A DNA stretch of 64,000 nt from contig WFMF01000057.1 in NCBI GenBank assembly GCA_011033025.1, positions 372,001-436,000 of the forward strand. The letters are read 5' to 3'. The DNA comes from Beroe forskalii. Lineage: Eukaryota > Ctenophora > Nuda > Beroida > Beroidae. The position numbers and the translations under genes are program-made. Below, one piece after another: positions 13,145 through 62,750 of this stretch (its first letter is position 1; every line of letters starts with the position of its first letter). The notes below the pieces were generated by a model. It worked only from the letters and a program-made list of their open reading frames with translations, did no database searches and had not been told where the DNA came from.

Positions 13145-13233
13145 AATTTTCGATTTCTTCAATTCGATTTCTTCATTTCGATTTCTTCATTTCGATTTCT
13201 TCAATCCTTTAACTTTTCAAATCCAACTTTTAG
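13145..13233 (+). promoter_or_regulatory. Repeated pyrimidine tract and 3' splice site before Kv exon 1
   Basis: Four or five tandem copies of about 13-14 bp (TTCGATTTCTTCA) precede the acceptor TTTTAG at 13231-13233. This region makes an unusually repetitive polypyrimidine tract. Confidence 0.5.
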
Positions 13234-16200
13234 ATCCTTGGAATGCGGCGTGTATGATAAGTTGTCAGAACACGAGAGACAGCAGATGAACAGCCTGAGC
13301 CTGGTCCAGGGTAACGGAGACAAGTTAATCTACAGCTCCAGCCACAACAGGAGGGTTAACATTAACGTTTGTAAGTTGAAAATTTAACGTCTCATTTCAT
13401 CAATTTAACCCCTACGTTGCAATCAAGGCAACTCATTAAATCAAAACCTCTTTCTTTCGTTCTTTCGTTAGGAATTTTAATGTTAAAACTAGACAACTTT
13501 TAACAACCATAATATTGAACGCGCGACTCACGTATTCAGTAGACCACTAAAATAAATAACTGCCGGCGTTTTGAAAATCATCATAGCTCAAGATAAATCT
13601 GAATCAACAATAAATTCCCCTCTTTCACAGCCGGTAAACTGTTTGAAACAACACTTGAAGCACTGGAGCAGTTTCCACACACGTTGCTAGGCAACCCAGA
13701 CAGGAGACAGGAGTACTATGACGACACACGTGACGAGTACTACTTCAACAGGAATCAGGTCGCATTCGACGCCATACTCTACTTCTATCAGTCAGGTAAG
13801 TGCAAAGCCACCATGCTCTACTTCTACCAGTCAGGTGAGTGCAAAGCCACCATGCTCTACTTCTATCAGTCAGGTGAGTGCAAAGCCACCATACTCTACT
13901 TCTATCAGTCAGGTGAGTGCAAAGCAACCATACTCTACTTCTATCAGTCAGGTGAGTGCAAAGCCACCATACTCTACTTCTATCAGTCAGGTGAGTGCAA
14001 AGCCACCATGCTCTACTTCTATCAGTCAGGTGAGTGCAAAGCCACCATACTCTACTTCTATCAGTCAGGTGAGTGCAAAGCCACCATACTCTACTTCTAT
14101 CAGTCAGGTGAGTGCAAAGCCAACCTGCTCTACTTCTATCAGTCAGGTGAGTGCAAAGCCACCATGCTCAACTTCTATCAGTCAGGTGAGCGCAAAGCCA
14201 CCATATTCTACTTCTATCAGTCAGGTGAGTGCAAAGCCACCATACTCTACTTCTATCAGTCAGGTGAGTGCAAAGCCAACATGCTCTACTTCTATTAGTC
14301 AGGTGAGTGCAAAGCCACCATGCTCAACTTCTATCAGTCAAGTGAGCGCAAAGCCACCATACTCTACTTCTACCATTCAGGTGAGTGCAAAGTCACCATA
14401 CTCTACTTCTATCAGTCAGGTGAGTGCAAAGCCACCATGCTCTACTTCTATCAGTCAGGCAAGTGCAAAGCCAACATACTCTACTTCTATCAGTCAGGTG
14501 AGTGCAAAGTAACCATACTCTACTTCTATCAGTCAGGTGAGTGCAAAGTAACCATACTCTACTTCTACCAGTCAGGTGAGTGCAAAGCCACCATACTCTA
14601 CTTCTATCAGTCAAGTGAGTGCAAAGCCACCATGCTCTACTTCTATCAGTCAGGTAAGTGCAAAGCCACCATACTCTACTTCTATCAGTCAAGTGAGTGC
14701 AAAGCCACCATGCTCTACTTCTATCAGTCAGGTAAGTGCAAAGCCACCATACTCTACTTCTATCAGTCAGGTAAGTGCAAAGCCACCATACTCTACTTCT
14801 ATCAGTCAGGTAAGTGCAAAGCCACCATACTCTACTTGTACCAGTCAGGTAAGTGCAAAGCCACCATACTCTACTTCTACTGCAGTCAGGTGAGTGCAAA
14901 GCCACCATACTCTACTTCTATCAGTCAGGTGAGTGCAAAGCCACCATACTCTACTTCTACCAGTCAGGTGAGTGCAAAGCCACCATACTCTACTTCTATC
15001 AGTCAGGTGAGTGCAAAGCCACCATGCTCTACTTCTATCAGTCAGGTGAGTGCAAAGCCACCATACTCTACTTCTACTGCAGTCAGGTGAGTGCAAAGCC
15101 ACCATACTCTACTTCTATCAGTCAAGTGAGTGCAAAGCCACCATACTCTACTTCTACTGCAGTCAGGTGAGTGCAAAGCCACCAATGTCACCATGATCTA
15201 CGTTTATCAGTCATGTGAGCGATTGTATATTTTTTTGGTGCTTCAGTGGACCCAAACGCATAATATTTAATTTTTACAGGGTGATTGGTCAAAAAAATGC
15301 TTTTTGAAAATTGAACATTTGAACATCCCTATACTATGAAAGCCGCCATGCCCTACTTCTATTAGCCAGGTGCGCGAAGCCACCATGCTCCACCGTCTAT
15401 TTCTGATATCAGACAGGTATTCGGAGATGTTTTATCATCCAGCGACCCAATGTCTTATCGTGAGTAATGACTGTTGACCACTAGGCACTCAGGCAACGCC
15501 TAAATAGTTGACCGTCGAGAAAATGTGCTAAATTATTTAACACTCAATAAGTAAATGTTGGTTAACGAATATTTTGACGCCATGCTCCATTAGCACCAAG
15601 CATATAAGTCAACAGCTCCTGCCCCAAGCATGAATTATGACTGCTCAGTGGTCAATGCTCATAACTCATGTCTATTTAGGTTGTATGAATCGAAACAATA
15701 TAGATTGGGAAAAATAGCACAGCATATTATTTGAACGTCTAAACTACGAGCATAAAAATTGATAAGAATGTCCACGAAGCATTAAGAATAGATGGCAATT
15801 GAATATTCGACGATTCTTAATCAGTATTTTACACTAAATCATAAGACTGTTTTCAAAATGATTGATTGCTGACGTCTAAAAACATGTAACTGGGGTGTTC
15901 CAATTCCAAAAATAAATCAATCATTTATCAAAGTAGTATTGAATTGTCGATTCGTGAACGTCAATGATTTATTTCATTTAGACAGTTTTTTAAAATAGCA
16001 GTTGAAACATAGCTAAGCAGAATAAATAAGTTTCGGCGTCTCGCCTCCCTGTCTGACTGAACCTAAAACTCGGACCAATAGATCAGCTAGAATAATATAA
16101 TATTTATTGATTGCAAAAACAACTGTTTAAACCTTACTGCTATTAATAACTAGAAATAAGAAAGTTTGACAAAGAAGTTTTTGAAAAAGTAAAATGAGAA

Positions 16201-19200
16201 TGGACGATCACGAAAATCGCGTTCACGATCGGAATCTCGAGGTTGCATTCAGGAATCAACTGCTTTTTGAAGTTCACACTTCCACAATAAAACATAATAT
16301 ACTGGATGAAAACTAGAGTGATTAAGATAAAGTATGGATAAGAACTAGATGTCATATCCACAGAAAAATTTATTGGTAAAATTAAATGTAGCAATGAAAA
16401 AGGTTTTATTTTGTGTAACGATACATTGGCATGATGTGGTCGATAGTCTCAAATTCTTGTTCCCAAAAATATTAGGGGTGAACCCACAAGGAGAACTATA
16501 AGCTGAGTGGTATAAGTCTTAGTCTATATGGCGAAAGTTATTGCAAAAGTATTACACAAAATGATTACACCACGGAATGCACAAGTTATGTCGACCTCTT
16601 TCATAACTTATTTCACCCTCTTTCATACTCCAACCTACCATCCCGCAGAGGGGGACATATACCAGCCAGACGGGTTACCGGACACAGTGTTTGAACGGGA
16701 ATTAGCCTTCTTCGATCTGGTGGACAGGACCATCGAGATGGACACTTCAGACACCCCCGAACCCGAAGTGCTCCACTCAGAAGTCGTGAAGTTAGTATTA
16801 AATAAACTGTCTCGTGAAGTTAGTATTAACTAAACTGTCTGAGCGTAAAAGCGTAATGAATTTTTGTGAGGCAAGTATTAATCATAAACTTTCAAGAGGT
16901 TGTGGCCGTCAGGGCGTAAACGGGTGGTTATCAAATGGCTGAGACCATGGAGGAATTTTGTTAAATGATTGAAGCGTCTGGTGATTTATCTACCTAGACA
17001 TGATGAATATCAAGATTTCAGAACAGGCAACAAATTCTCACTGCTGAGTGCTGCGATAAAATTAAATGGCCGGATTACTGTAAACAGTTTCAAATCATCA
17101 AAAAGATAAGAGCAAATAAAAATGATTATACAACAACAACTAAAATAATCCCTCGTTGAACAACAACTAATAAAAACCCTCATCGATTAACCAATAAATA
17201 ATTTCAGGAGTTCACGAGGGGTCTCCAAGTGGCGGGCAGCTCTGTGGGGCTTCGTGGAGTTCCCCAAGAGCTCGATACCTTCCCGAATATGGGCCTCAAC
17301 TAACATGCTCATCATTCTGATAAGTGTAGTAAGTAAAACTACGTACTACATAATATAGTGAGTCGAAACTTATGATGTATTCAGTAAAAGAAATAGTTGA
17401 TTGAAATGCGACTCAATTAAGTTCTTTATATGATTTACATCATCATTCATCACTTCCACTTGATATTAGGTCATATTCGAAAAAATTAACAAAGTTTGAC
17501 GGAAACCCTAACGACAGACATGAGTCACCTAAACATTCCATCGTCAGGTAAATCTAATCTGGGAAAGTTTACCGCGGTACAGAGAAGACACAACGATAGA
17601 AACCTTCTTCATCGTGGACACCATCTGTGTCTCCTACTTCACACTAGACCTCTTCCTTCGAACGGTGAGACTTGTTTATCTGTTTATTGGGATGTTAATT
17701 TCCATATCTCCACGTGCAAACTCAAACATATTTTGATTTTCTTCTTCGTGCCAACTGCCAAAATATGAGTGTGACTTGCTGACTTTATTGTTGAAACCTG
17801 GATTGCCCAAATAATGACTTTGTGCACACCGCGAGAGCGATTTTTTGTTAATTCTACAACTTTCCTTCGAGTTGCTTTATCTTACTATCTTAACTGCTGA
17901 TTCACTTTCTTCCTTATTGCGAAGCTATTACAAAATAGATCCCCTTGAATTCCTGTGCACAATTCATCTCTCAGATCATCAGCACAATTAAATGGGCATT
18001 TTTCGTAATTTCTCCAAATATTCCGGATTGTATTACAAAAAATAAAACACAGGGAAACTTTCCAGATTTCAAGTTTAAGATTAAAATTGTTGAAAGAAAG
18101 GGTCTGGCCTAGCTGGACCTCCAACTACTTATTGCATCCCAGGAAAACGACCTGTTGGCTATGATCTTATGATTCAAAGATTTCCTAAATTCTTCGCTTA
18201 GGGCTTAAGCCTATAAGTATAAGTAATGTCTATATCCACGTTACATAAAATTCTGTACATCTTATGGCCTGATTAACACTCTAAGGACTGTAGATTGAAC
18301 CTTTATTGACTCTGGCGAATCTAAGTAATCGTCTAATTCCTCAGTTAAGTACGCCAACTGTGTGCAGCTTTATCAAGAACGTGCTGAACTGGTTTGACCT
18401 GCTGGCCATCATACCTTTCTACGTGGAATTGATTGTCGGCAGAGAAAACGCCTCAGGTAATTTAAGGTTTCCTCACGTTTCACGCGCGTATCATGCATTT
18501 TTATATCGATTAATATTCGTTCACTTTACAATAAAGCAATTGACTCTTGATGCTATAAAAATAGGTCATCATTTCGATACATATTGTGCATTTCAAAATC
18601 GGCTTCGCCTCGTCTTATATGCTCTAATATTCATCTCAATAGCTATATGATATACGTGACTACAGCCCGTTCAGTAGCGAGTTGTACCTATGAAAGTTAC
18701 TTTACGCGTACCTAGACCTATCTCATGTTTGCTGATTAATGGTAATTGTTCTGCTGCCTTGTACAGAAAGAATTGACGAAGAAAACCCAAATTTTTCTCT
18801 CCACATATCAGAAAAACAGTTCGCCAGGAAATGTGCATATTTCGACTGTTAAACATAAGCTTACGCATATAATATATATCTATATTATGCCGAATAAATA
18901 TTAGTTCTCTGACAGTTCGGAGAAATCTTTCAATGAGAAAACAGCTGCTACAGAGCTCTGGAGTGATGAACTTTCGGTATTCACAAGTTTAAAAAATGTA
19001 AACCATGAAGTTCAACACGAGCTTAGCGTGGCTGTATGGTTTTTCGTTGCGGTGCATGAAAAAAGGCTGTTCTTATAACAAGGAATATGAAAACAGCTCT
19101 ACTTGCAACGCCTTGAGAATTCCTTAAACGGCATGTAATGCAATATGCAAATATTTATCGCAGGTTTGGCAGCATTCAGGATCCTTCGACTTTTCAGAAT

Positions 19201-20227
19201 CACAAGGCTTTTCAAACTTATTCGTCACTCATCCAGAATGATGCTAATGATGGAGGTTAGTTGAGAATAGTTTTTGAAAATCAGAGCGAAATAGATGTAT
19301 AAGTGGTTGATTCCTGTCAATAATTCATTTTGAATTTCGATATGATCACCGTACTCCATTTACAATCTTAGTGGCAAAAAGACTTGTCTTACATCAAAAA
19401 TTTGTCTTACAGCAAAATTTGTCTTTCGACGAAAATAATCTTTCGGCAAAAATTAAAATGCAAACAACACCCCAAATTAAAATGCAAAAATCTAAGATGA
19501 AAACCACACCCCAGGTTGTAAGTAACTGTTTGTCGGAACTGGTGATGCTGTTCCTCACGTGGGTAATGGGGACACTCATATTCGGGACTATCATGTTTTA
19601 TGTGGAGGAATCACCCGGCTCAGACTTCAAAAGGTTCGTACTCGAGGCAGTGGCTGGTTTTAGGGTGCCTATTATTTCGAATAGTTTCTGTCTATAGTCA
19701 TGATATTTTGTAGTCAATGTAGCAAATGGATAATTTTCTTGAATAGAATGAACTATGCTATTAGATAAAAAAATGTCTGACAATGTCTTTTAAAAAGTAC
19801 CTACAGCAAGCAGGGCTATATCGAAAACTGCACTCATTATTATGGAGTCAGCAGGCTGGCAACTTGCCAGTGGCAAGAAGACAACCAAATGACACCCACT
19901 CCCTACATTATTCTGAGACATTCATGAGCAATTGAATGTCTGAAATGCAATGACCTCCCCTTCTATTCCAGCATATTACACGCGTGTTGGTGGGCAGCGG
20001 TTACCATGACGACAGTCGGCTACGGCGACCTGTCACCCACCACGCCCCTCGGCCAAGTCATCGGCTCCATCATCCTCTTCCTCTCCATGATCTACATCGC
20101 CCTGCCCATGACTCTTATCGTTAGCAAGTTCAGTTCCACCCTCGGGGCGCACCAGGACAAATTGGACGAAAAACGGCGCAAGTATAAGAAAATGCCGAGC
20201 AAAGAGAAGAACAACGTGTTTTCATAG
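13234..20227 (+). CDS. Shaker-superfamily voltage-gated K+ channel subunit (Kv1-like), ten coding exons
   Basis: This is a pore-forming or modifying subunit of a tetrameric plasma-membrane K+ channel. Coding exons are 13234-13370, 13631-13795, 16649-16790, 17208-17328, 17470-17547, 17583-17664, 18345-18456, 19164-19255, 19515-19633 and 19972-20227 (TAG). All junctions are GT-AG. Counting from the in-exon ATG at 13286 gives about 416 residues. The frame is open upstream to the acceptor at 13233, so an earlier exon may hold the true start. In order: T1 tetramerisation domain ([18 protein letters not shown], then [10 protein letters not shown]), S1 (about 140-170), S2 (197-224, [17 protein letters not shown]), S3 (225-261), S4 about 265-285 ([19 protein letters not shown], a basic residue every third position), S5 (293-331), the filter TTVGYGD (about 346-352), S6 and a short Lys-rich tail. 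Two oddities stand out. S6 reads [12 protein letters not shown], so the second Pro of the usual PxP hinge is missing, as in silent/modifier Kv subunits. Exon 5 fits its neighbours only if one base of an A6 run (near 17480) is ignored, and the next intron would be only 35 bp. Family assignment is firm; Kv1 versus silent subtype is inference. Confidence 0.93.
13770..15195 (+). repeat. 39-bp minisatellite built from an exon end plus its 5' splice site (about 36 copies)
   Basis: The unit holds the last coding bases of the T1 exon (CTCTACTTCTATCAGTCAG), a consensus donor (GTGAGT or GTAAGT) and GCAAAGCCACCAT. About 36 head-to-tail copies follow the first donor at 13795/13796. At 39 bp each, the unit keeps the Kv frame and encodes 13 residues ([13 protein letters not shown]). 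In the Kv frame the first 13 donors can be reached without a stop; the 14th copy carries TAG (about 14296). Three later copies (near 14880, 15075 and 15155) have two extra bases, giving CTACTGCAG. Decayed copies lie at 15190-15220 and 15340-15380. Each copy could act as an alternative donor adding 13 residues within T1; whether any but the first is used is not visible. Confidence 0.95.
15200..16648 (+). other. Remainder of Kv intron 2
   Basis: AT-rich intron between the donor array and the exon at 16649, with decayed 39-bp units at its start. The acceptor is CCCGCAG at 16642-16648. No other element recognised. Confidence 0.6.
16786..16848 (+). repeat. Tandem duplication of the Kv exon 3 donor
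   Basis: TCGTGAAGTTAGTATTAA is present twice, 28 bp apart, at the end of exon 3. The first GAA/GTTAGT (after 16790) gives the correct phase 2 junction to S1. The second is out of frame by one base and would shift the S1 reading. Confidence 0.75.
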
Positions 20228-28269: not shown

Positions 28270-29640
28270 ATTATGATCTCGAGAGTACGACGTTTCATCT
28301 ACAAGGCTACGACATTTCAACTCTGGGGTTGACACCTCTTATCAGGGTAGGAAACTTGATCTCAGTGTATGACCCTTCATCTTAGACTGCGACATTACAT
28401 CTCTCGGTATGACACTTCATCTCAGGTACGACACTTCATCTCAGACAGCGACATTTCATCTCTCGGTACGACACTTCATCTCAGACTGCGAAACTTCATC
28501 TCTGGCGTGTACAATACTTCATCTCAAGGTACGACACTTCATCTCAGACAGCGACACTTCATCTTAGGGAACAAAACTTCATCTCACTCTCAGGGTTCAA
28601 AACTTCAACTCAGGGTACCACACTTCATCTCATGGAGCGACACTTCATCTCAGACTGCGACACTTCATCTCTCAGTACGAAACTTTACCTCAGACTGCAA
28701 CACTTCATCTCAGGGTACAACACTTCATCTCAGGGTACAACACTTCATCTCAGACAATGACATTTCATCTCAGGGTACGACGTTTCATCTCAGGTATGAC
28801 ACTTCATCTCAGGGTACAACACTTCATCTCAGACAACGAGATTTCATCTCAGGGTACGACACTGCAACACAGGGTACGAAACTTCACTCAGACTGCGACA
28901 TTTCATCTCAGGGTACGACATTTCATCTCAGGTACGACACTTCATCTTTTTGGTACCACAGTTCATATCAGACTTTCGACACTTCATCTCTGGCGGGTAC
29001 GATATCATCTTTGACTGCGACACTTCATCTCTGGGTACGACACTTCCCAGAGATGAAGTGTTGCAGTCTGAGATGAAGTGTCGTACCTAGAGATGAAACG
29101 TACCCCGAGATGAAGTGTCGTATCCAGAGATAAAGTGTCGCAATCTGAGATGAAGTCATGAAATGTCTCTAGATGAAGTGTCTGCCAAGACTAAGTGTCG
29201 TACCTGAGATGAAATCTCTACCCTGAGATAAAGTGTCGTACCAGAGATGAAAATGTCTTTGAGATGAAGTGTCGTACACTGAGATAAAGTTTCCTTCCTT
29301 GAGATGAAGTGTCGCAGTCTGAGATGAAGTGTACATCCTGACCGGCTAGCTGAGCTGTCTGGCAAGATGAAATTCCAGCCGGCAGAGATGGCCAGATGAA
29401 GTGACCGGTGGTGTCAGAGATGAAGTTCTTAATGAAGTGTCGTACCGAGATGAAGTTTCGGAATTATCAGCTTGAAAATGGTACTGGCAAGACTTCAAAT
29501 ATCGTTTACAGAGTTACAGTACAAATCAACTGTTTTTTGAGATGAAACGTCGTACTCTGAAGATGAAATGTCGTTGAATTAGTAGATTGGTATTTGAGAT
29601 GAAGTCGAAGATGAAATGTCATGAGATGAAGTCTCGCGAG
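28270..29640. repeat. 20-bp minisatellite folded as a large palindrome
   Basis: From 28270 to about 29045 the unit reads ACTTCATCTCAGGGTACGAC. From about 29046 to 29640 the same unit appears only in reverse complement (GTCGTACCYTGAGATGAAGT). The polarity switches once, near 29045, so the region could form a stem of several hundred bases. Open frames here are repeat artefacts. Confidence 0.9.
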
Positions 29641-30139: not shown

Positions 30140-31924
30140 GGCTATTCCGTTTGGCTGGCCGGCTAGCCGACCGGCCAGCCGGCCGGCTAGCCGGTTAGCC
30201 GGCCGGCTGGCTGGTCGGCTAGCCAATCAGCCGGTCGGCTAGCCCGTTAGTTAGCCGGCGGCTAGCCGGCTGCCGGCCGGCTTTAACCGGCACAAGCTGG
30301 CCGGTCGGCTAGCCGGCCGGCTAGTCAATCGTCGGTTAGCCGGCCGGCTAGCCTCCCGGCTTGCCAGATGAGCCGGCTAGCCGGCGGCGCCGAGCCGACC
30401 GGCCAGCCGGCCGGCTGGCCGGTCGGCTAGCCGGCTGGCCGGTCGGCTAATCAGCCGGTCGGCTAGCCGCCCGGCTAGCCTCCCGGCTTGCCAGTTAGCC
30501 GGCCGGCTAGCCGGTCGGTTAGCCGGTCGGCTAGCCGATGAGCCAACCGGCTAGCCGACCGGCCAGCCGGTTAGCCGGCCGGCTAACCCCTACTCCAACA
30601 CCCCTTTGCCTTCCTTCTCCAAACCTTCGTTTGCCTTCCTTCACTGGCGAAATATCCGAAATCAGCGTATCCAAATTTTCAGGATGCCTCAATCGGTGCA
30701 TAAGTGGGTTAACGTATTCTCGCGGTATACCTACGTATCTCGCGTCATGTAATGCCTTATCAAGATGAGAACACGTTTGATCCTACTTGGGATCGCATTC
30801 ACTCACGTGTCTTACGTGAAGATGCCTCATCACATGATCTGAACCGAATAGTAGCCAACTGAACGTGTGCAAGGTCTCATATCCCATCGCATCTCGTTAT
30901 GATCCCATATCTCGCCATATGAATGGTCTCGTATCACATCACCTCTCGTGATCACCACCCTCACTGTAGAAATAGCTTGGCGGAGGGTTCTGTTTATCCA
31001 GTTTCTCTATGACAAGACCACATCAAAGACGAACACAGTTCCAGAAAAAGATGATGAATCTACCACCTCTTCGAATGGCCCCTCTTCCACCCCCTTCCAG
31101 TCCACCTACACAGACTACATCTCCTGCTCAACCCACCTCTCCTGCTACACTTACCTCCTCTACAACATCCTCATCTACCTCTCCACTACGCCCCACAGCA
31201 CCCACCACTGCCACAGTTTCTACTGGTACCAGTTCTACGAGACATGGCATCCTCAGGAGAACAGTCCCCGACATCTGTGCCGTATGCGAAGTCAGACACG
31301 ACCCTCTCAACTGTCCAGTCCGACAAGCAAGGCTTGCTACCCACCGCAACTACATTGAATGTAGTCCTGATCAGTCCGTGTCACATGGGATACGTAATTG
31401 ACCGATGTTACTATTCTGTTGGAAGTATTTTCATCCTGCAATCAGTCATATTCACGTAACACACGTAAGTGAATGCGATCCCAAGTAGGAGAGCGATGTT
31501 CTCATCTTGATAAGGCATTACATGACGCGAGATACGTAGGTATACCGCGAGAGGCAGTCCTGAAAATTTGGATACGCTGATTTCGAATAATTTGCTCTTA
31601 ATACTGTCAGATGCCCGAGAAGGAAGGCAAACGAAGGTTTGGAGAAGGAAGGCAAAGGGGTGTTGGACTGTTGGAGTAGGGGTTAGCCGACCGGCTAACC
31701 GGCTGGCCGGTCGGCTAGCCGGTTGGCTCACCGGCTAGCCGGCCGGCTAGCCGACCGGCTAACCGACCGGCTAGCCGGCCGGCTAAATGGCAAGCCGGGC
31801 GGCTAGCCGACCGGCTGATTGACTAGCCGGCCGGCTAGCCGGTTGGCTCAGCGGCTGGCCGGCCGGCTAGCCGACCGGCCAGCCGGCCGGCCAGCCGGTC
31901 GTGTCGGAATAGTTCAAGACTGCC
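30140..31924. mobile_element. 1.8-kb nested element with GGCTAGCCGG arrays as ends
   Basis: An 8-bp direct repeat, GCCGTTTC, flanks it (30132-30139 and 31925-31932), and removing it restores the continuity of the MULE arm. The right end in reverse reads GGCAGTCTTGAACTATTCCG; the left end reads GGCTATTCCG, so about ten bases of the terminus appear lost. Next come palindromic GGCTAGCCGG arrays (30150-30590 and 31685-31910). Inside these is a second inverted pair of about 230 bp (30590-30820 and 31445-31690). The core is unique sequence. Confidence 0.82.
31009..31401 (+). other. Open frame with zinc-knuckle-like motif inside the nested element
   Basis: A 130-codon open frame, rich in Pro, Thr and Ser, ends with a Cys-X2-Cys-X3-His-X4-Cys pattern (CAVCEVRHDPLNCPV). 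This resembles nucleic-acid-binding knuckles of retroelement Gag-like proteins, but no other domain supports that. It may be a captured fossil fragment. Function unknown. Confidence 0.35.
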
Positions 31925-42721: not shown

Positions 42722-45700
42722 TAGTCTGGTAAGTTATGCACATTTGTCTGCAAAAATTGTTAGAGTTCTATGGACACTTGTTATACCTTCCTTAGACCAT
42801 TTTGAACGAAAAAAGCCAGGGAGACAACTTTTTCAGATGGGGCTTGCCCCATTTTTGGGCCACGCCCTTTTTCCACTCATCGCATGATCTGAAATTCCAT
42901 ATCTTGGCTTAGGAAGGTCGTACAGACTTCGTTCATAGCTCAAACGAATCGCAATCATCATGTTTATATATGACTTGTTAATAAACATATGCTGTAAAAT
43001 GCTCAGGAAATGAGTTATGGGCCAAAAACCCATTTTTTGGGCACTCGGGCCTCATAATTTCGGCGATTATCATGTTTCGGCTTAGGAAGGTCGTACAGAC
43101 TTCGTTCATAGCTCAAACGAATCGCAATCATCATGTTTATATACAACTTGTTAATAAACATATGCTCTAAAATGCTCAGGAAATGAGTTATGGGCCAAAA
43201 ACCCATTTTTTGGGCACTTGCGACTCATAATTTGGCAATTATTATATTTCGGCTTAGGAAGGTCGTACAGACTTCGTTCAATCGTTCATAGCTCAAACGA
43301 ATCGCATTCGCGTGTTTATACACTACTTTCTAATGAACATATGCTCTTAAATGCTCAGGAAATGAGTTATGGGCCAAAAACCCACTTTTTGGGCACTCAC
43401 GACTCATAATTTGGGCAATTAGCATTAAGCATATTTCGGCATAGTAAGGTCGTACAGACTTCATTCATAGCTCAAACGAATCGCAATCATCGTGTTTATA
43501 CACGACTTGCTAATGAACATATGCTCTAAAATGCTCAGCAATTGAGTAAGAGGCCAAGAACCCACAACTGAGGTCCTCACAACTGATAATTCAGTGTACA
43601 ACTGAAATTGTACAAGAGAGTTGTCAGAAAAGTGAAAACACATTGTGTACCATCTTGAATCCAAAAACCTGTTAACTGAGAAAAACAATGTTTCAGATCA
43701 TACTGGAGCTGTATATGAATCAAATGATGAATCACTTTTATGATTTATTAGACACAGATTCTATCTACATGGACTATGGAAAAGCTTTAAATAATGGTTG
43801 ACTAAATGTCTTGGAAAATGGAACTTCTTTTCTCGCTCTAAGAGATGGGTTTCACAACAAGTTTATTGGATGGATCATTGGATCCAGTCGTTTTGCACTG
43901 ATTAAGATCAAGTGGTGGTTTTGAATGGTGTACACTATGAAGTTATCAAGGTTTTGAACGGTGTTCATCAAAGAATCATACAAAGACCAGTGGCCACTCC
44001 TCTTCATATTGTTGATGAATGACCTAGAACAATTAGTGGCTTCATCAGCTAAGGTGAGCCCTTTTGCTGATTGATACTTGAATTTCTAAACAAAATGGCG
44101 AATGCCTGCCTTGAAGACTGCATGCTGCTTCAAGATGATCTGTGCAGGATGCTATGATGGTCACAAAGAAATAACTTGCTATGTGAAAGCTCTAATTTTG
44201 AACTCGGTTGTTGCTGAAACCTAGTGCTACGAAATTTCCGATGAAGTTCTTCTTGGCCAGTCGAACACCTCAGAGATCTCGGAGTTCTTGTATAAAAGTA
44301 TAAAGTGATCTCAGTTGGTCTTGGCACATTGGGAATACAGTGTCAAAAGCTAGAAGTTCTTTGTCCAAGGTGTTCAATGTATTTAAAACTCGTGACATGA
44401 ATAATAATGTTGACTCTCTAAAAAGCTAAAAGTCGCTAGTGACGAACATTCTACATTGCCCACTGTGGAACCCATGCCATGCAAAGATACTGAAATCCAG
44501 CTCTTAGAGGGGGAACAGAGAACATTCACTGGTTGCATACGGGGTCTACAGCATGATCACAACTATTGGGAACGACTTGCTCAACTGAACCTCATGTAAC
44601 TGCAACACTGGCGGTACCCTATGTAATTTTGATGATGTGGATTGTGGAAGATCCTCCACAAAGTTGTTTCAAACTGTTGTGACAATGACCTTCACAACAA
44701 CATCAAGACCAGGTTCTGTAGCTATCATTCCTCCACTGTTGAAGTCACGCTCTCCAGCAAGATGTATAAAAGATCTTTTTCAGTCCAAGGGCCAAATTTC
44801 CCAAATTTGTAAGAATTACAAAAATGTTTGAATCGTTATAGAAATTGCATTTTTGCTTGGATACCTGCAACCAAGCAACCGTCTAGTCTGTGGATACAGC
44901 TGCAGCTATTCGAACTCAGACTAAACTACACAACATCAACCTTGAGGTGGTCGAACATCTGATGGCCCTTCTGACTGACGGATAAACTTCATCAAGTTAC
45001 CAGTGACTCAGTAAATGCACTGTGAGAATATGGCAAACTTGATATTTTATTAACAATATGGAAAAATAGAACTGAACTCTGATGTTGGTCAAGTGGGAAG
45101 TTTAGTTGGAGCAGATCGATAATCGGGTCCATTAGATGGACCCCAAAAATGGGGTCTGGCCCATATAACTCATTCTTTGAGCATTTTGCCATTTAAGAGC
45201 ATGATAGGTATGTTCATTGAAACTTATATAAACATTATGATGAATGCAGTTAGTTTGAGCTGTCCTGAAAATGATATTTGATTGACCAAATTAAAAGTCG
45301 TGAAGTCGTGAGAGCCCAAAAATATTGTTTTGCCCATAACCCATTCCCTGAGCATTTTAAAGCATACCTAATGCATATTTTAACCATGTTTATAAACAAG
45401 TCACATGAAAACATGATGGCTGTGTTTCGTTTGAACTATGAACTAAGTCTCTGCAACCTTCCTGGGCCATGATATGATAATTGACCAAATTTAATGAGTC
45501 ACGAGAGCCTAAAAATGTGTTTTTGGCCCATAACTCATTTCCTGGGCATTTTAGAGCATATGTTCGTGTATAAACACGACGAATGCGATTCGTTTGAGCT
45601 ATGAACGAAGTCTGTACGACCTTCCTAAGCCGAAATATAATATTATAATAATTGCCAAATTATGAGTCGCGAGTGCCCAAAAAATGGGTTTTTGGCCCAT

Positions 45701-46187
45701 AACTCATTTCCTGAGCATTTTAGAGCATATGTTCATTAGAAAGTAGTGTATAAACACGACGAATGCGATTCGTTTGAGCTATAAACGAAGTCTGTACGAC
45801 CTTCCTAGGCCGAATTATGATAATCGCCCAAATTATGAGGCGCGAGTGCCCAAAAATGGGTTTTTGGCCCATAACTCATTTCCTGAGCATTTTAGAGCAT
45901 ATGTTTATTAACAAGTCGTATATAAACATGATGATTGCGATTCGTTTGAGCTATGAACGAAGTCTGTACGACCTTCCTAAGCCAAGATATGGAATTTCAG
46001 ATCGTGCGATCACTGGAAAAAGGGCGTGGCCCAAAAATGGGGCGAGCCCCATCTGAAAAAGTTGTCTCCCGGGCTTTTTTCGTTCTAAATGGTCTAAGGA
46101 AGGTATAGCAAGTGCCCATAGAACTCTAACAATTTTTGCAGATTTCATCCAATATATGTGCATAACTTACCAGACTACCCGTTCGGC
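42722..46187. mobile_element. 3.5-kb foldback-type element with tandem-repeat arms
   Basis: The left arm begins TAGTCTGGTAAGTTATGCAC and the right arm ends with its reverse complement at about 46187. The outer 230 bp of each arm are closely inverted, including GACAACTTTTTCAGATGGGG. Each arm then holds four or five tandem units of about 175-185 bp (42905-43590 and 45180-45980) containing CGTACAGACTTCGTTCATAG. The centre holds a decayed LINE. No target duplication could be fixed. Confidence 0.72.
43690..44920 (+). pseudogene. Decayed LINE reverse transcriptase
   Basis: Fragments in several frames resemble a non-LTR reverse transcriptase. IYMDYGKALNNG (about 43755-43800) parallels the DYSKAFD motif. 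PLLFILLMNDLEQLV (about 43990-44040), followed by PFAD, parallels PLLFLLYINDL and FADD. RTFTGCIRGLQHD (about 44520-44570) and RLAQLNLM parallel the C-terminal segment. Frame breaks and stops are many, so the copy is old. The clade (CR1, Jockey or similar) is not resolved. Confidence 0.65.
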
Positions 46188-48828: not shown

Positions 48829-51800
48829 ATGACGGAGGAAGTGTCATATGTTGCTACCATATGGACAGTCACACCGACCACGTTCTTAGGGGTTCCCAGC
48901 AACTTCACTGTGGACTACGTTATAGGAATCCTCCTCGGTAAGAGTAGTTTCATGTATTTTTAAGTTATTTTAAATGCTATTTATTTCAATAATTGATATC
49001 CTGTAATATGCATCTGATAATGCCTTAGAACTCTCGAGATGTACAACCGCCTCGACTTCGTCTCGGTGGCATATCTGCACAGCTCTCAAAATGGCAAGGT
49101 AATAATTTACTAAAAACCCCTACCTCTTATCAGGAGTAATGACCAGGGTTCAGCATTCTCTTCAACCTCGTCATGATGCATGAGTTCTGGCGGAAACTGC
49201 GGGCTGGCAAATTCAACGTCAGCTTCTACATCTACTTCCACTTGTTAGCGAGCGACTTGGCCCTGTGCTGCGTCTGTGCCCCCTACTCTGTCTACACGCA
49301 TATCATGGTACGTGTACTTCAGGGAGGGACATGTGCTGTGATCGGGGGGTAGGTGTTAGTTTAGTTGAGACAACAGAAGTATGTTATTAATGTGATAACA
49401 GATATAAATTATAACAGCAGAGAATAAAGTAATAAAACTAATATTACGTGATCACCTAGGGGGGGGTTCCAGATTGTGTTACATGTTATTGTGTAACAAA
49501 TACAACTACTGTAAACTTTATTACAACAGAGGGGGAATTTTAAGAAATCGGCCAAAAATTTTAACGAAAAAGATCGCTTGTTCTGACCCATATCTCACTT
49601 ATCAGGGTCGTTCACTAGAGGTAGTTCTCAGACATAATTTTAACAAAAGAACCTTATCCTCAACGTATCAGGGTCGTTCACTAGAGGTAGTGGAGCAATT
49701 CCAAGACAACCTTCTCCTCAAGATCTACTGCAACGTGTCAGGGTTCACGTACAACGTGGTCAGCAGGACCACCGTCCAACTCATCCTACTGCTCACCTTC
49801 GACAGGTTGGTTCTATGTATACGACCCAAGTAATGGAGAATGTGACTTACTGTACCATATTCCACTGTGACTTACTATACATTCGACTGGGACTTACATT
49901 CAACCCTATTATTTGACTTACTAATGAATTCGACTGGGACTTACATTCAACCGTATTCTGTGACTTACTCATTATTTGAGATTTCTACTGTGACTTACTT
50001 TCGACTGTATCATATTCCACTGCGACTTACGGCTAACAGGACTTGAATGAATTCAGGATTCTATGGCAGTATGGGATGGGCATGAATAAAGTTTGATTGA
50101 GACTTCCCTTCGAGAGATGTTTTAACTTACTTATAGTAGTTATAATAAGAGTCTCAGGGCCTCAGGTCTTCAAATCGCGTTTACCAATGTTTGACAGAAT
50201 TAATTTTATTTTACAATAGCCTTTGTCACTCACATACTTGGTGAATAATGGCCATCAAATATCTAAATTGGATTCTGAGAGGTTCAGTGGGCAATGATAA
50301 ATTTAATATTCGAGTATAATATTAGAAAACATGCTTACATGTGTTACGATGAATCAATACTTGACATGAGTGTCAAGTTGACACGTGGTATGCGATTTGT
50401 TCGACATCAAGTCCGATGGAGGCAATGCCATTATTATGGCTTATGGTGGTGAGAATCTGATGCATTTTGCCTTATTTCGGTGTGGAAGATGCATTCTACA
50501 TCTCAGTATATAAGCCATAAGGTCTCGCAAATCAAATTATATTTTCTGAATTGACAGACGATAGTCTCATGGTGTCCGGAGAGTTACATTATGACTTTGA
50601 CAGCAGTAAAACGTAGCCTCAAGATATTAATGCGATGTTTCTGTTCAATAAAGCAATAAGCAAATCAAATAGATAAATTTACTGTCACAGAGAATGTACG
50701 GATGGTCGAGATTAAATTTTCATCCCTTACAAAACTAATAATAAAGCAATAAGGGACGACACTAAAGCTAAACTTGATAAGACAAGTGGCGAATAAGGAA
50801 ATAATCCTATTCCACGGTTCTAACCCTGATTGAACGCTTACACTTTATGACTTTACAAGTATTTCACATGAAATCCTCAGGTGGTTGACAATCCTGCAGC
50901 CCCGGCTGCACCGCAAGTACGTGACTGTGTCGCTGTATCGGAAGATAACGGCCGCCCTATGGATCATATCCTTTACCATGTCCTGCTCGCCCTTCTTCAA
51001 CGGGCGGTACTACGCCTTCACCGCCAAGTTTCTCTCCATATGCACGTGGGACTTACCGGTTAGTGAATTTAAAGTGAATATATGTATAATTTATTTCATG
51101 TTCATAGACATAAAATTATAAAATAACTGGTTGTTGAAAAGCTATTGTTCTCCAAGTCCAGTCAGTTAGAAAATTGCTTATCTGTTGGTAAATATAATAT
51201 TTATTTCACAACTTCCATTGCCGCAATACTCGAGCTGCCTAATTGCCGCGTGACTAACACACGTGATACGTTCTGAACCAATCACAGAAGACTTCCTGCC
51301 GAGCAGGCAGCATTACACCTGGATTGATTAAAACTTGTGCACCTAAATATAACATGAAATATTCTTATATTTATGTGGCAGCTCACAGATTAAAGTTCAA
51401 GTTCTATGTGTAAGAAATTATCAAGTTTCATATGAAACTTGATAATTTCTTACACATAGAACTTGAAAGTTGAACTTTAATCTGTGAGCTGCCACATATT
51501 ACGTCAGCGACTGGGGGAGAGGGGGTTCCTAAATGCTGACATATTATTCTAATAGGGGGAGAGGTTTCACTACCAGGTCCAATTTACATTTGAAGTTCAG
51601 TCACTTTCTTAATCTTCCTAATGTTCAAATCATTGTTTCAACCCTATAATAGATAAAGTAACTAAAAGCACTCAAATTGTACTCGAATAAAAGCTTTTTG
51701 ATGTGGAGGTTGGCCAATGCTGGCGTCAGCAAAGGAGAAAAGGCTCCACAATGGTGATGGAAGCTATAAGCGGGGCAGGGGGTCCAAAACGGGCAGAAAA

Positions 51801-59818: not shown

Positions 59819-62750
59819 TTACCTATCTCTATATTTTGCTATTCTGAAAGGTTGCAAACTGTTCGGCATGAACTTTTCAGCGAAGGCAGACGAAGTTCCG
59901 ACCATTAGCAACTGATTACCGCGGTATCGTGTCCTCAGAACGCCTTCAAAGAGCCCTGTCACAGGAGCCCCATTCCACATGCAGGCCACAAGGGCAGCTG
60001 CCTGGGCAGTGTCAGAGCTGTTTCTCTGGTAGAAGTAAAGCACTAGAGCCTGGTCCCCTTCAGGGATGAATCCCTCCTTGCAGGGGTCCCCAGAGTGATC
60101 CACTACTTCTGCAGTGCTCAGAATCCCGGATACGAGGGATCTGTACGAGGATTTGTCTAGCTTCTCGAGCGAGCTAAGTTCGTGATAAGCAGCCTCTGAG
60201 GCTACATGATCCTTTGATTTCCCAGACTTAGTGTGAGCTCGGGGTAGCTCGGGGTACAGACTGTCCAGTCCTCGCCGCCTCAGTACTTTCTGTAGCTCCC
60301 CACTCCAGCTGACGCCGTGACAACACTTGGGCCACGCTGGCTCCAGGGTGCCTCTCCAGCTACTCTGAGACACCACCCAGCCACGGCCCAGGAAGGACTC
60401 AGAACGGTAAACTACTGCTGGGTCTCCTGGTGACGAAGATAGGGCGTTGGAGTTCCAAACACTGGAGGAGAAGAGGGTTTTATCACCCTTCAGGACAGGA
60501 AGCAACTGCTCGAAGAAGTCTAAGAAGTCGTGCGACACTATTAGATCCTCTTCAAGGAAGAATGCAAAATCTGCATCGGGAAACATACATTTATTCGGGT
60601 TAACTCCCCAGACAGCATCAAAAATCCTCCGGTAATGTGTCGAGAGGAAATCAGCTTCATTGGAATTAGCAACGCCCAGAAGTTTTGAGTTTGCTTTGGG
60701 GAATCTGAGGAGTCTCACACCGAACTGCTGCACCAGAGACAAGATCTCAGAGGAATACCCATCTTGGAACACGAGGATGTTCTGAGGGTTAATTCCCGGA
60801 ACACGGAACAGGGCCAGGAGTGCTTGTTGGAGAGAAGGGCCTCGTTCCCGGGAAACAACCACTATCGGCAGCGAGTTGACTGTGAGGTGTCTATCATCCG
60901 GGAGGGGCTGCGGTTTAACCCACGACCGTTTACACAGGTCGCCGTAAGTATCGTGTAAGTCACAGAACTCCTTCCTCAGGCCCGTCAGTACATCCTCCCC
61001 ATCTAATCTGTGTGGGACACACCGAGACACTGCCACGGGCGGAGCCCATTCCTCGCCCACGTGCCCCAGGGCTTCGTATTGGGATATGGTGGAGATACCC
61101 ACCTGGCCCACAAACGACCAGCTGGACTTCCAAGCCACATCGTGAATGAGAGTGCTGCCGAGTTGCTCAATAGCACGCCGGGATTCCGGGCTGAGGGTAA
61201 AACTGGCGTCTTCCTGAGCCACCAGAACTACGATCCGTTCGTCGTTTATGTCCTCTAAAACTTCAACCATGTCAACATCTGCGAGAAAAGAAGAGGCTAT
61301 TGATTTGTATCGTGAAACAAATTTATAATATGGTCTTGTCACGAATGTGAGGTGATTTTGATTTTTTTCAATTAATCAGAAATTTTTAAAAAGCATTTTT
61401 TCTAAAAAGCACAAAATACCGACCTGAATTTTGGAAGTTATGGACACTGCCTGCAGTCGCTCTTTCTGGGTTGATAACAACGAGATTAATTCCCCCATCT
61501 GCTTTACTTTCTGGTAGCACCTGTATCAGTTAGCTTGATAATTATTAAAAAACTAAGGGTTGTTCTCATATTCTCGTACGATAATTGCAAATTGATTGTA
61601 GCGAAGCGGGTCGAAATTTAATCTGCATAATATGATAAAGTCAAAATTAAACCTGTCTTGACTTTAAACCCGACTTGTCTTCTTTCTGTCGTGGAAATTT
61701 CATAATTCAATGGGTATCTACAGTCAATTGTAACTCACCTCTTTTCCATTCAAGCAAATCTTTGACCTATGAGGCCCTGACTCTGCATAGATATGTATGT
61801 GCCCCTCTCCGCACTCTACTGCATCCGGACAACTCCCCGACACAACTACAGGATCTCCCTGAGCTGATTCCACTGAATCCCCACCATCTTGCTGAACATT
61901 TCCCACAGAGTCAGAGACAGACTTCCTGCCACCAAGTGCTCTCTGTTTCTCCTCATGATGAGCGATAGGGTTAAAGCCCAGATCTGAGGAGACAATCATT
62001 TGAATTTATCAAGGTAAATGAAATTTGAATCAATTCTGTTTATTCATTATTCAGTTATTTCAATAGGAAGATTCCCAAATAACTTGACAAAAAACTGACC
62101 AGTGACCAGTTGTTTTTTAAGATCCAACGTTTTCCGAAACATGAGATAGGAAACTAGATGGAACACCATTTCAAGAGATTATATTATAAGTATTTTAAAC
62201 ATTTCAATAATAAGTTGTAACTCATTCAAGGAATGCAACATAAAACATACCTATTTCAAACCCTCAAAAGCTCAAAAAGAGCTCATAAAATGAGATGAAT
62301 TTAATAACCCTACGTCCCTACCATAAAATATAAAGATTCATTAGTTGTGACTGACTCTTGGTGCCGAATCAGCATAGGTAGACCTAAGGCAGACTCGTCC
62401 TAACCCCAATCATAACCCTATCCCTAACCCTGATCATAACCCTAACCTTGACCCTTCACAAGGGTCCAATTAAGCAAGTCCACCTTAGGCATGTCTGAGC
62501 TGAGTTGGCAGTCCTCCAGACTGCTTGAAACATGCTTCATCAACTAACCTACATAGGGCATATCATTCATCATTTCGGCATCACTATTTTCTGCATAGAT
62601 TGCAAGTAACATCTGAGCATTAATGTAGCAGAGTAAGATGATGAGGAGAATTGCTAGCCTTTCTGTGGTCAAGGGACCTTTCCTCCATGTTAAAAACCTT
62701 TCCAATCTTGTCTTTGGTCCCCTTAAACGGAGCCTACGAGCTTTTGTCAT
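59819..62750 (-). CDS. POMGNT1-like protein O-mannose beta-1,2-N-acetylglucosaminyltransferase
   Basis: In animals POMGNT1 is a Golgi type II membrane enzyme that adds GlcNAc to O-mannose on dystroglycan. Exons: 62750-62549 (ATG at 62750; a CATTAG acceptor lies just upstream in the 5' leader), 61983-61739, 61520-61424 and 61278-59819 (TAA). Phases agree; 667 residues against 660 in human. A basic cytosolic N-terminus is followed by a signal anchor (about 32-53, LAILLIILLCYINAQMLLAI). The carbohydrate-binding stem of the ILEI/FAM3 type comes next (GINLVVINPERATAGSV, then WKSSWSFVGQVG). The GT13 catalytic domain begins near 318 (LPIVVVSRERGPSLQQALLA) and has FFLEEDLIVSHDF, the acidic metal site, at about 424-426. 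It continues with GDPAVVYRSESFLGRGWVV and LEPAWPK. C-terminal STAEVVDHSGDPC matches the vertebrate tail. After WPK, the WDWDMWMR-type segment with the expected catalytic Asp is replaced by CCHGVSWSGELQ, and the WND motif reads WNSN. It could be an inactive or altered paralogue. Family is firm; activity uncertain. Confidence 0.93.
62380..62500. repeat. Telomere-like CCCTAA repeats inside a small inverted-repeat element
   Basis: Degenerate TAACCC repeats (AACCCTATCCCTAACCCTGA) are bracketed by CCTAAGGCAGACTCG and a reversed CAAGTCCACCTTAGG. This sits in intron 1 of the POMGNT1-like gene. It may be a tiny MITE with telomere-like filler. Confidence 0.5.

Follow-up and report, generated by a model that had tools for sequence, protein, structure and literature searches.

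In what looks like an intact Shaker/Kv1-type voltage-gated potassium channel gene, as predicted from the DNA, the end of coding exon 2 is repeated in tandem together with its splice donor. The copies match the exon end, most of them carry a strong donor, the frame around them is intact, and no constraint on them was detectable. Probably this array is a neutral minisatellite that was seeded across the exon end, and the mRNA is made mainly from donor 1, perhaps with some leaky use of the in-frame copies nearby. The anatomy of the array suggests that it would have been seeded by duplication of 39 bp across the junction of Kv exon 2 with intron 2, and that its later growth within the intron would have come from slippage or unequal exchange. 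In the productive mRNA, donor 1, which we infer to be the ancestral junction, would mainly be joined to the acceptor at 16649, and the remaining copies would leave with the intron. Leaky splicing at the nearest copies would lengthen the protein in blocks of 13 residues, and copies beyond 13, if used, would give truncated, probably degraded transcripts.

The array and the potassium channel gene

The 39-bp tandem array was detected by TRF at 13772-15184 on the forward strand (36.1 copies, 93% matches, score 2450), and the first exon/intron junction was placed between 13795 and 13796 (Table 1). All positions are those of the window, the whole 64-kb stretch of DNA that was analysed. The first part of the consensus unit is the 24-nt end of coding exon 2 (CCATACTCTACTTCTATCAGTCAG) and the remainder is GTGAGT followed by GCAAAGCCA, with GTAAGT in place of GTGAGT at six donors including donor 1. 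The unit is split into 24 nt of exon and 15 nt of intron, and the array, containing the last 24 nt of exon 2, overlaps the exon-intron boundary.

Table 1. Positions of the array, its remnants, the Kv exons and the second donor duplication
Feature	Position or length	Strand	Description and basis
Array unit	39 bp	+	24 nt of exon 2 end, donor hexamer and 9-nt linker (unit dissection)
Donors 2-36	13796..15166	+	Close 35 intervals; 2-13 in frame, 14-36 past TAG
Decayed unit remnant	15189-15219	+	Local alignment score 42; 0/1000 shuffles as high
Decayed unit remnant	15346-15390	+	Local alignment score 57; 0/1000 shuffles as high
Decayed unit remnant, weak	15380-15418	+	Local alignment score 31; 3/1000 shuffles as high
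Kv exon 1 (as numbered here), start of T1 domain	13234..13370	+	AG/GT boundaries, translation
Kv exon 2, T1 domain, donor 1 CAG/GTAAGT	13631..13795	+	Boundaries, T1 match joined to exon 3
Kv exon 3, end of T1 domain	16649..16790	+	Boundaries, T1 match
Kv exons 4, 5, 6	17208-17328, 17548-17664, 18345-18456	+	Gene model
Kv exons 7, 8, 9	19164-19255, 19515-19633, 19972-20227	+	Gene model
Second donor duplication, exon 3 end and GTTAGT donor	16784..16840	+	28 bp x 2 (TRF)

The preliminary description of this DNA had reported about 36 tandem copies of a Kv exon end with its consensus splice donor, the first 13 being reachable in the Kv frame without a stop, and a unit length that is a multiple of three. 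The copy number agrees with the TRF count and with the 36 donor-bearing copies located in the array; 30 of these 36 donors are exactly CAG/GTRAGT; and the stop of the Kv frame, TAG at 14296-14298, sits in copy 14, with 13 full-length products modelled from the donors before it. The multiple of three held for 32 of the 35 donor-to-donor intervals (39 bp), but not for the other three (41 bp; copies 29, 34 and 36).

The units are arranged head to tail with variant repeats, as in a minisatellite, and 20 distinct types were counted among 35 units, with a mean pairwise identity of 93.9% (for both values the three 41-bp units were cut to 39). An exact run of 113 bp was found at a lag of 78 and another of 98 bp at a lag of 156. 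Because the former shows past re-duplication within the array, it is plausible, from the one haplotype read, that the copy number may be unstable between individuals. No clear higher-order periodicity of units was detected over 15 lags (the smallest one-sided P was 0.11, for lag 4) in a unit-order distance table in which the three 41-bp units were trimmed imperfectly; the exact runs were taken from the raw sequence. The unit copies decay toward the intron side of the array, where three remnants were recognized (Table 1). Further candidates at 15241-15335 (30/1000 shuffles as high) and 15441-15600 (871/1000) were unconvincing, and the scores at 16400-16660 and 13371-13630 were below the best of 200 shuffles. 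Tandem arrays are liable to collapse or expansion in assembly, which makes misassembly of the copy number, or of the array itself, a point to be considered. The variety of unit types at this level of identity and the graded decay into the flanking intron both speak against such an artefact, which we regard as extremely unlikely; the presence of the array seems safe, and the exact count of 36 does not.

The gene was modelled with nine exons, 13234-20227 on the forward strand, encoding 419 residues without an internal stop; its true 5' end was not located. Exons 4 to 9 encode S1 to S6 and the TVGYGD pore, with the filter located in exon 9 and the stop codon at 20225-20227. The product contains the domains BTB_2 (3.7e-20) and Ion_trans (2.8e-36), and its nearest solved structures are Kv1.3 and Kv1.2 (Kv1.3 7ej2 at 1.2e-75). 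The T1 domain matched best to Kv1.1 and then to other Kv1/Shaker channels, the matches to Kv4 and Shaw/Kv3 being weaker. When exon 2 was closed at donor 1 and joined to exon 3, a gapless match of 85 residues to the Kv1.1 T1 domain 1a68 was obtained (92.3 bits, E 1.5e-25). With one added unit of 13 residues, the sole insert length tried, the match fell to 78.7 bits and a gap of 13 residues appeared in the best alignment shown.

Donor strength and predicted products

Except for copy 18, which has GC (CAG/GCAAGT, 14458-14460), all donors of the array begin with GT (35/36). The motif CAGGTRAGT occurs 30 times in the window on both strands, and all 30 occurrences are inside the array. Pairing with U1 was calculated by RNAduplex, using the U1 5' end sequence and no modified bases. 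The energy was -13.2 or -13.3 kcal/mol for 30 of the 36 array donors and ranged from -11.1 to -4.6 kcal/mol for the remaining six, whereas the seven other donors of the Kv gene (-3.6 to -8.3 kcal/mol) were all weaker than those 30. After adjustment for local RNA accessibility, donor 1 ranked sixth of 36, behind donors 36, 25, 23, 27 and 26, with donor 36 first and donor 2 seventh. Since the U1 pairing is nearly equal and the accessibility rank is only sixth, donor 1 is not singled out by strength, and this is the main point against its dominance.

The mean cost of opening was 6.6 kcal/mol for the 25 copies in which positions -1 and +3 are both G (GTGAGC in one of them), versus 4.8 kcal/mol for the six GTAAGT copies. 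Hiding of the later donors by local folding was considered as a possible switch and rejected, as the GTAAGT form of donor 1 recurs at donors 23 and 25-28 and donor 1 is thus not singled out.

Under exon definition, an internal exon, here of 165 nt, pairs best with a near donor. For this reason, and because the isoform from donor 1 has a normal T1 domain, donor 1 would be expected to be the main site in use. Duplicated donors were reportedly the subject of older experiments by Reed and Maniatis and by Eperon and colleagues. The choice between competing donors is influenced by SRSF1, which favours the intron-proximal donor, and by hnRNP A1, which favours the intron-distal donor, as described in PMC5585400; the preference of SRSF1 would thus favour late copies in this array.

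Donors 1-13, each joined to the acceptor at 16649, give full-length predicted products of 419 to 575 residues, in which every in-frame unit adds the 13-residue block G-[KE]-C-K-A-T-[MI]-L-Y-F-Y-Q-S. For donors 14-36 joined to the same acceptor, translation stops after 267 residues of the model at the TAG in copy 14. The non-coding frame that remains open over the array is longer (13691-14512, 822 nt) than the Kv frame (13603-14298, 696 nt), and thus the openness of the Kv frame is not special.

With donors as strong and as nearly equal as these, and with 13 predicted products in frame, several near donors might be used to an appreciable extent with no adaptive role, giving T1 isoforms with zero to a few inserts together with truncated transcripts from far donors, and channel output might be lowered or diversified as a side effect of array length. 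In human DOK7, two competing donors 11 nt apart are both in use according to PMC5585400, and boundary repeats in human genes can yield alternative transcripts in the cases described in PMC2812944. The lower match to Kv1 structures when a block is present in the T1 domain and the early stop behind donors 14-36 weigh on the other side. We take such leakiness as a genuine possibility, though short of an even chance. It overlaps with the preferred reading of a neutral array spliced mainly at donor 1, and the likelihoods of the two should not be expected to add up to one.

The same unit may also be viewed as a putative 3'-splice-site-like segment, CTCTACTTCTATCAGTCAG, abutting GTGAGT. Intron 2 would then be removed stepwise through the copies, a zero-length step regenerating the donor and leaving the mRNA unchanged. 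The pyrimidine content of the 20 nt before CAG is 70-75% (70% before CAG/GTGAGT, as in a recursive splice site), and that of the acceptors of the gene is 45-75% (8 of 9 checked). Usual introns are longer than 39 nt, however, and steps of this length fall below their size. In human, distal exonic recursive sites with the sequence YAG/GT have been documented, and lariats were found for 10 exons, but AG is the final dinucleotide of over half of all human exons, so that the motif alone is weak evidence (PMC10156609, for the exons described there). Stepwise removal of the intron is unlikely in our estimate. The resemblance to these dual-specificity sites lies in an exon-end YAG/GT that may serve as acceptor and donor; the sites described in that report are single, in contrast to the putative 36-fold arrangement here.

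Constraint and repeat background

If the additional donors were kept for use, fewer changes might be seen in the donor columns or in the amino acids. The donor columns contained 1.56 variants per column versus 1.17 elsewhere (permutation P 0.71 for so low a donor value). Of the 15 distinct changes in 35 units, 3 were synonymous in the Kv frame, against 4.1 expected; the values were 7 of 15 against 4.1 expected for the open non-coding frame, and 2 of 15 against 4.5 expected for the third frame. For units 2-13 alone, 2 of 9 changes were synonymous in the Kv frame (2.2 expected). No constraint on the donors or on the Kv frame was detected across the copies by these comparisons, the power of which is low with 15 distinct changes. 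The pattern of changes does not support a maintained donor ladder, although 15 changes are still compatible with weak selection.

A second donor duplication was found at the end of exon 3 in the same gene (Table 1), in which 27 of 28 positions are alike in the two copies. The length of 28 bp is not a multiple of three, and use of the second donor would shift the frame and end the modelled protein after 188 residues; a donor duplication was thus tolerated in this gene regardless of frame. The window holds 39 merged tandem arrays, which together make up 15.9% of its length. Against this background it is unremarkable that two of the eight donors in the model lie within tandem repeats (P for two or more by chance, 0.37; 0.30 when coverage is computed without the two donor arrays). 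Among the nine acceptors of the model, none is inside a tandem array, the exon 5 acceptor having been taken one base off in the acceptor checks without effect on the donor counts. Together, the second duplication and the repeat coverage make the strongest contextual argument that the array would be of mutational rather than functional origin.

The preliminary description had gone further in inferring that the extra donors form a ladder by which 0 to 12 blocks could be inserted, and a selected array would be kept for regulated insertion of these blocks into the tetramerisation domain. The 39-bp spacing in 32 of the 35 intervals and the 13 open in-frame donors are as such a role would have them. 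We nevertheless hold it to be very improbable, given that constraint on donors and frame was not seen (in a weak test of low power), that a non-coding frame is open longer than the Kv frame and that 41-bp units are present. With donor 1 the T1 domain aligns without gaps, whereas one added unit opens a gap of 13 residues, and the donor of the next exon of the same gene is duplicated by a frame-breaking unit of 28 bp.

Related systems and other features of the window

Internal tandem repeats at exon-intron boundaries have been described in human genes of segmental duplications (PMC2812944). As in the Kv gene, these are boundary minisatellites able to alter splicing, with an average unit of 30 bp; they differ in having about four copies on average and in giving novel introns, some from cryptic sites, in the examples reported there, whereas the Kv array holds 36 copies of the native donor and needs no new exon. 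Tandem duplication across a boundary is also a recognised route to new introns, as in the potato RdRp gene (PMC4974935), in which splice signals were likewise copied by duplication across an exon-intron boundary, with AG/GT in the copied piece. The potato case, as described in that report, is a single duplication over the 3' boundary that produced a new intron and exon, in contrast to the many copies over the 5' boundary that apparently just lengthen an existing intron here. In the Kv gene model, the full-length product needs no extra exon or acceptor.

Other systems share single features with the array. GYNGYN tandem donors (PMC1779574) are neighbouring donors giving subtle protein changes, but the motif treated there is overlapping, unlike the 36 donors at a spacing of 39 nt. 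For the VNTR in intron 18 of ABCA7 (PMC6660495), an association is described between the length of the minisatellite and altered splicing of an exon next to it; that VNTR lies inside the intron, and its unit is not described, in the passages considered, as carrying the donor of the exon. The SmPoMuc mucins of Schistosoma mansoni (PMC2576457) have repeat blocks with splice sites and variable short peptide repeats, but a whole 27-bp exon is repeated there in a unit of about 1 kb, as opposed to the exon end and donor alone. Among the matches listed from the open-licence literature, no account of an array that multiplies a native donor many times or dozens of times was found, which leaves room for the existence of one. 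PMC8724738, PMC9989356, PMC4039745 and PMC12783039 have only a loose bearing on the matter. Boundary minisatellites are thus already known, and the Kv array is an extreme variant of them.

Experiments on how the spliceosome chooses between identical donors usually involve two sites. The present locus, in an intact gene, naturally lines up 36 donors of which 30 are nearly equal, and has a built-in read-out, copies 2-13 giving an in-frame insert and later copies a stop. If the copy number varies, individuals would represent a natural dose series. Exclusive use of donor 1 would be a clean demonstration that position beats strength, and use of later donors would be an unusual case of repeat-driven protein variation. 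As a more far-reaching idea, which we consider a long shot, if the array were unstable in the germline and its 36 sites nearly equivalent and of dual specificity, this one exon end of a voltage-gated ion channel could act as a splicing dial. The copies in use would then set the number of 13-residue blocks in the tetramerisation domain, or else the amount of transcript lost to the stop in copy 14, and individuals with arrays of different length would differ in channel output.

An exact search of genome_contigs with a 23-base unit pattern gave a single match, on a Flavobacteriales MAG contig. The match was discarded as a chance identity of 24 bp inside a bacterial reading frame, and no convincing match to the Kv protein was found on that contig (best E 0.57). 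An exact 27-base unit pattern gave no match in viral_contigs. Within the window, no family was detected by Rfam at gathering thresholds and no tRNA gene by ARAGORN with the bacterial code.

Several other features were noted in the window. A 14-bp unit, TTCGATTTCTTCAA, is repeated 4.1 times at 13149-13205, just upstream of the exon 1 acceptor (13234) and in its pyrimidine-rich region (TRF). Two minisatellites at 28346-29046 and 29050-29332 are inverted relatives aligned head to head, and those at 30153-30588 and 31684-31898 are likewise inverted relatives of each other. Inverted arms at 42747-43591 and 45386-46142, lying 2-3 kb apart with a longest arm of 294 nt at 96% complementarity, are built partly of tandem units of 172-173 bp; the arrangement looks like a transposon with terminal inverted repeats holding tandem repeats. 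A weak match to a rhodopsin-type receptor was found at 50834-51121 (7tm_1, E 0.00018, 21.5 bits against the Pfam cut-off of 30.5). On the reverse strand, an uninterrupted frame of 518 codons (59819-61375) matched GNT-I (4.5e-21) and ILEI (5.5e-12), and its predicted product resembles glycosyltransferases of the POMGNT type.
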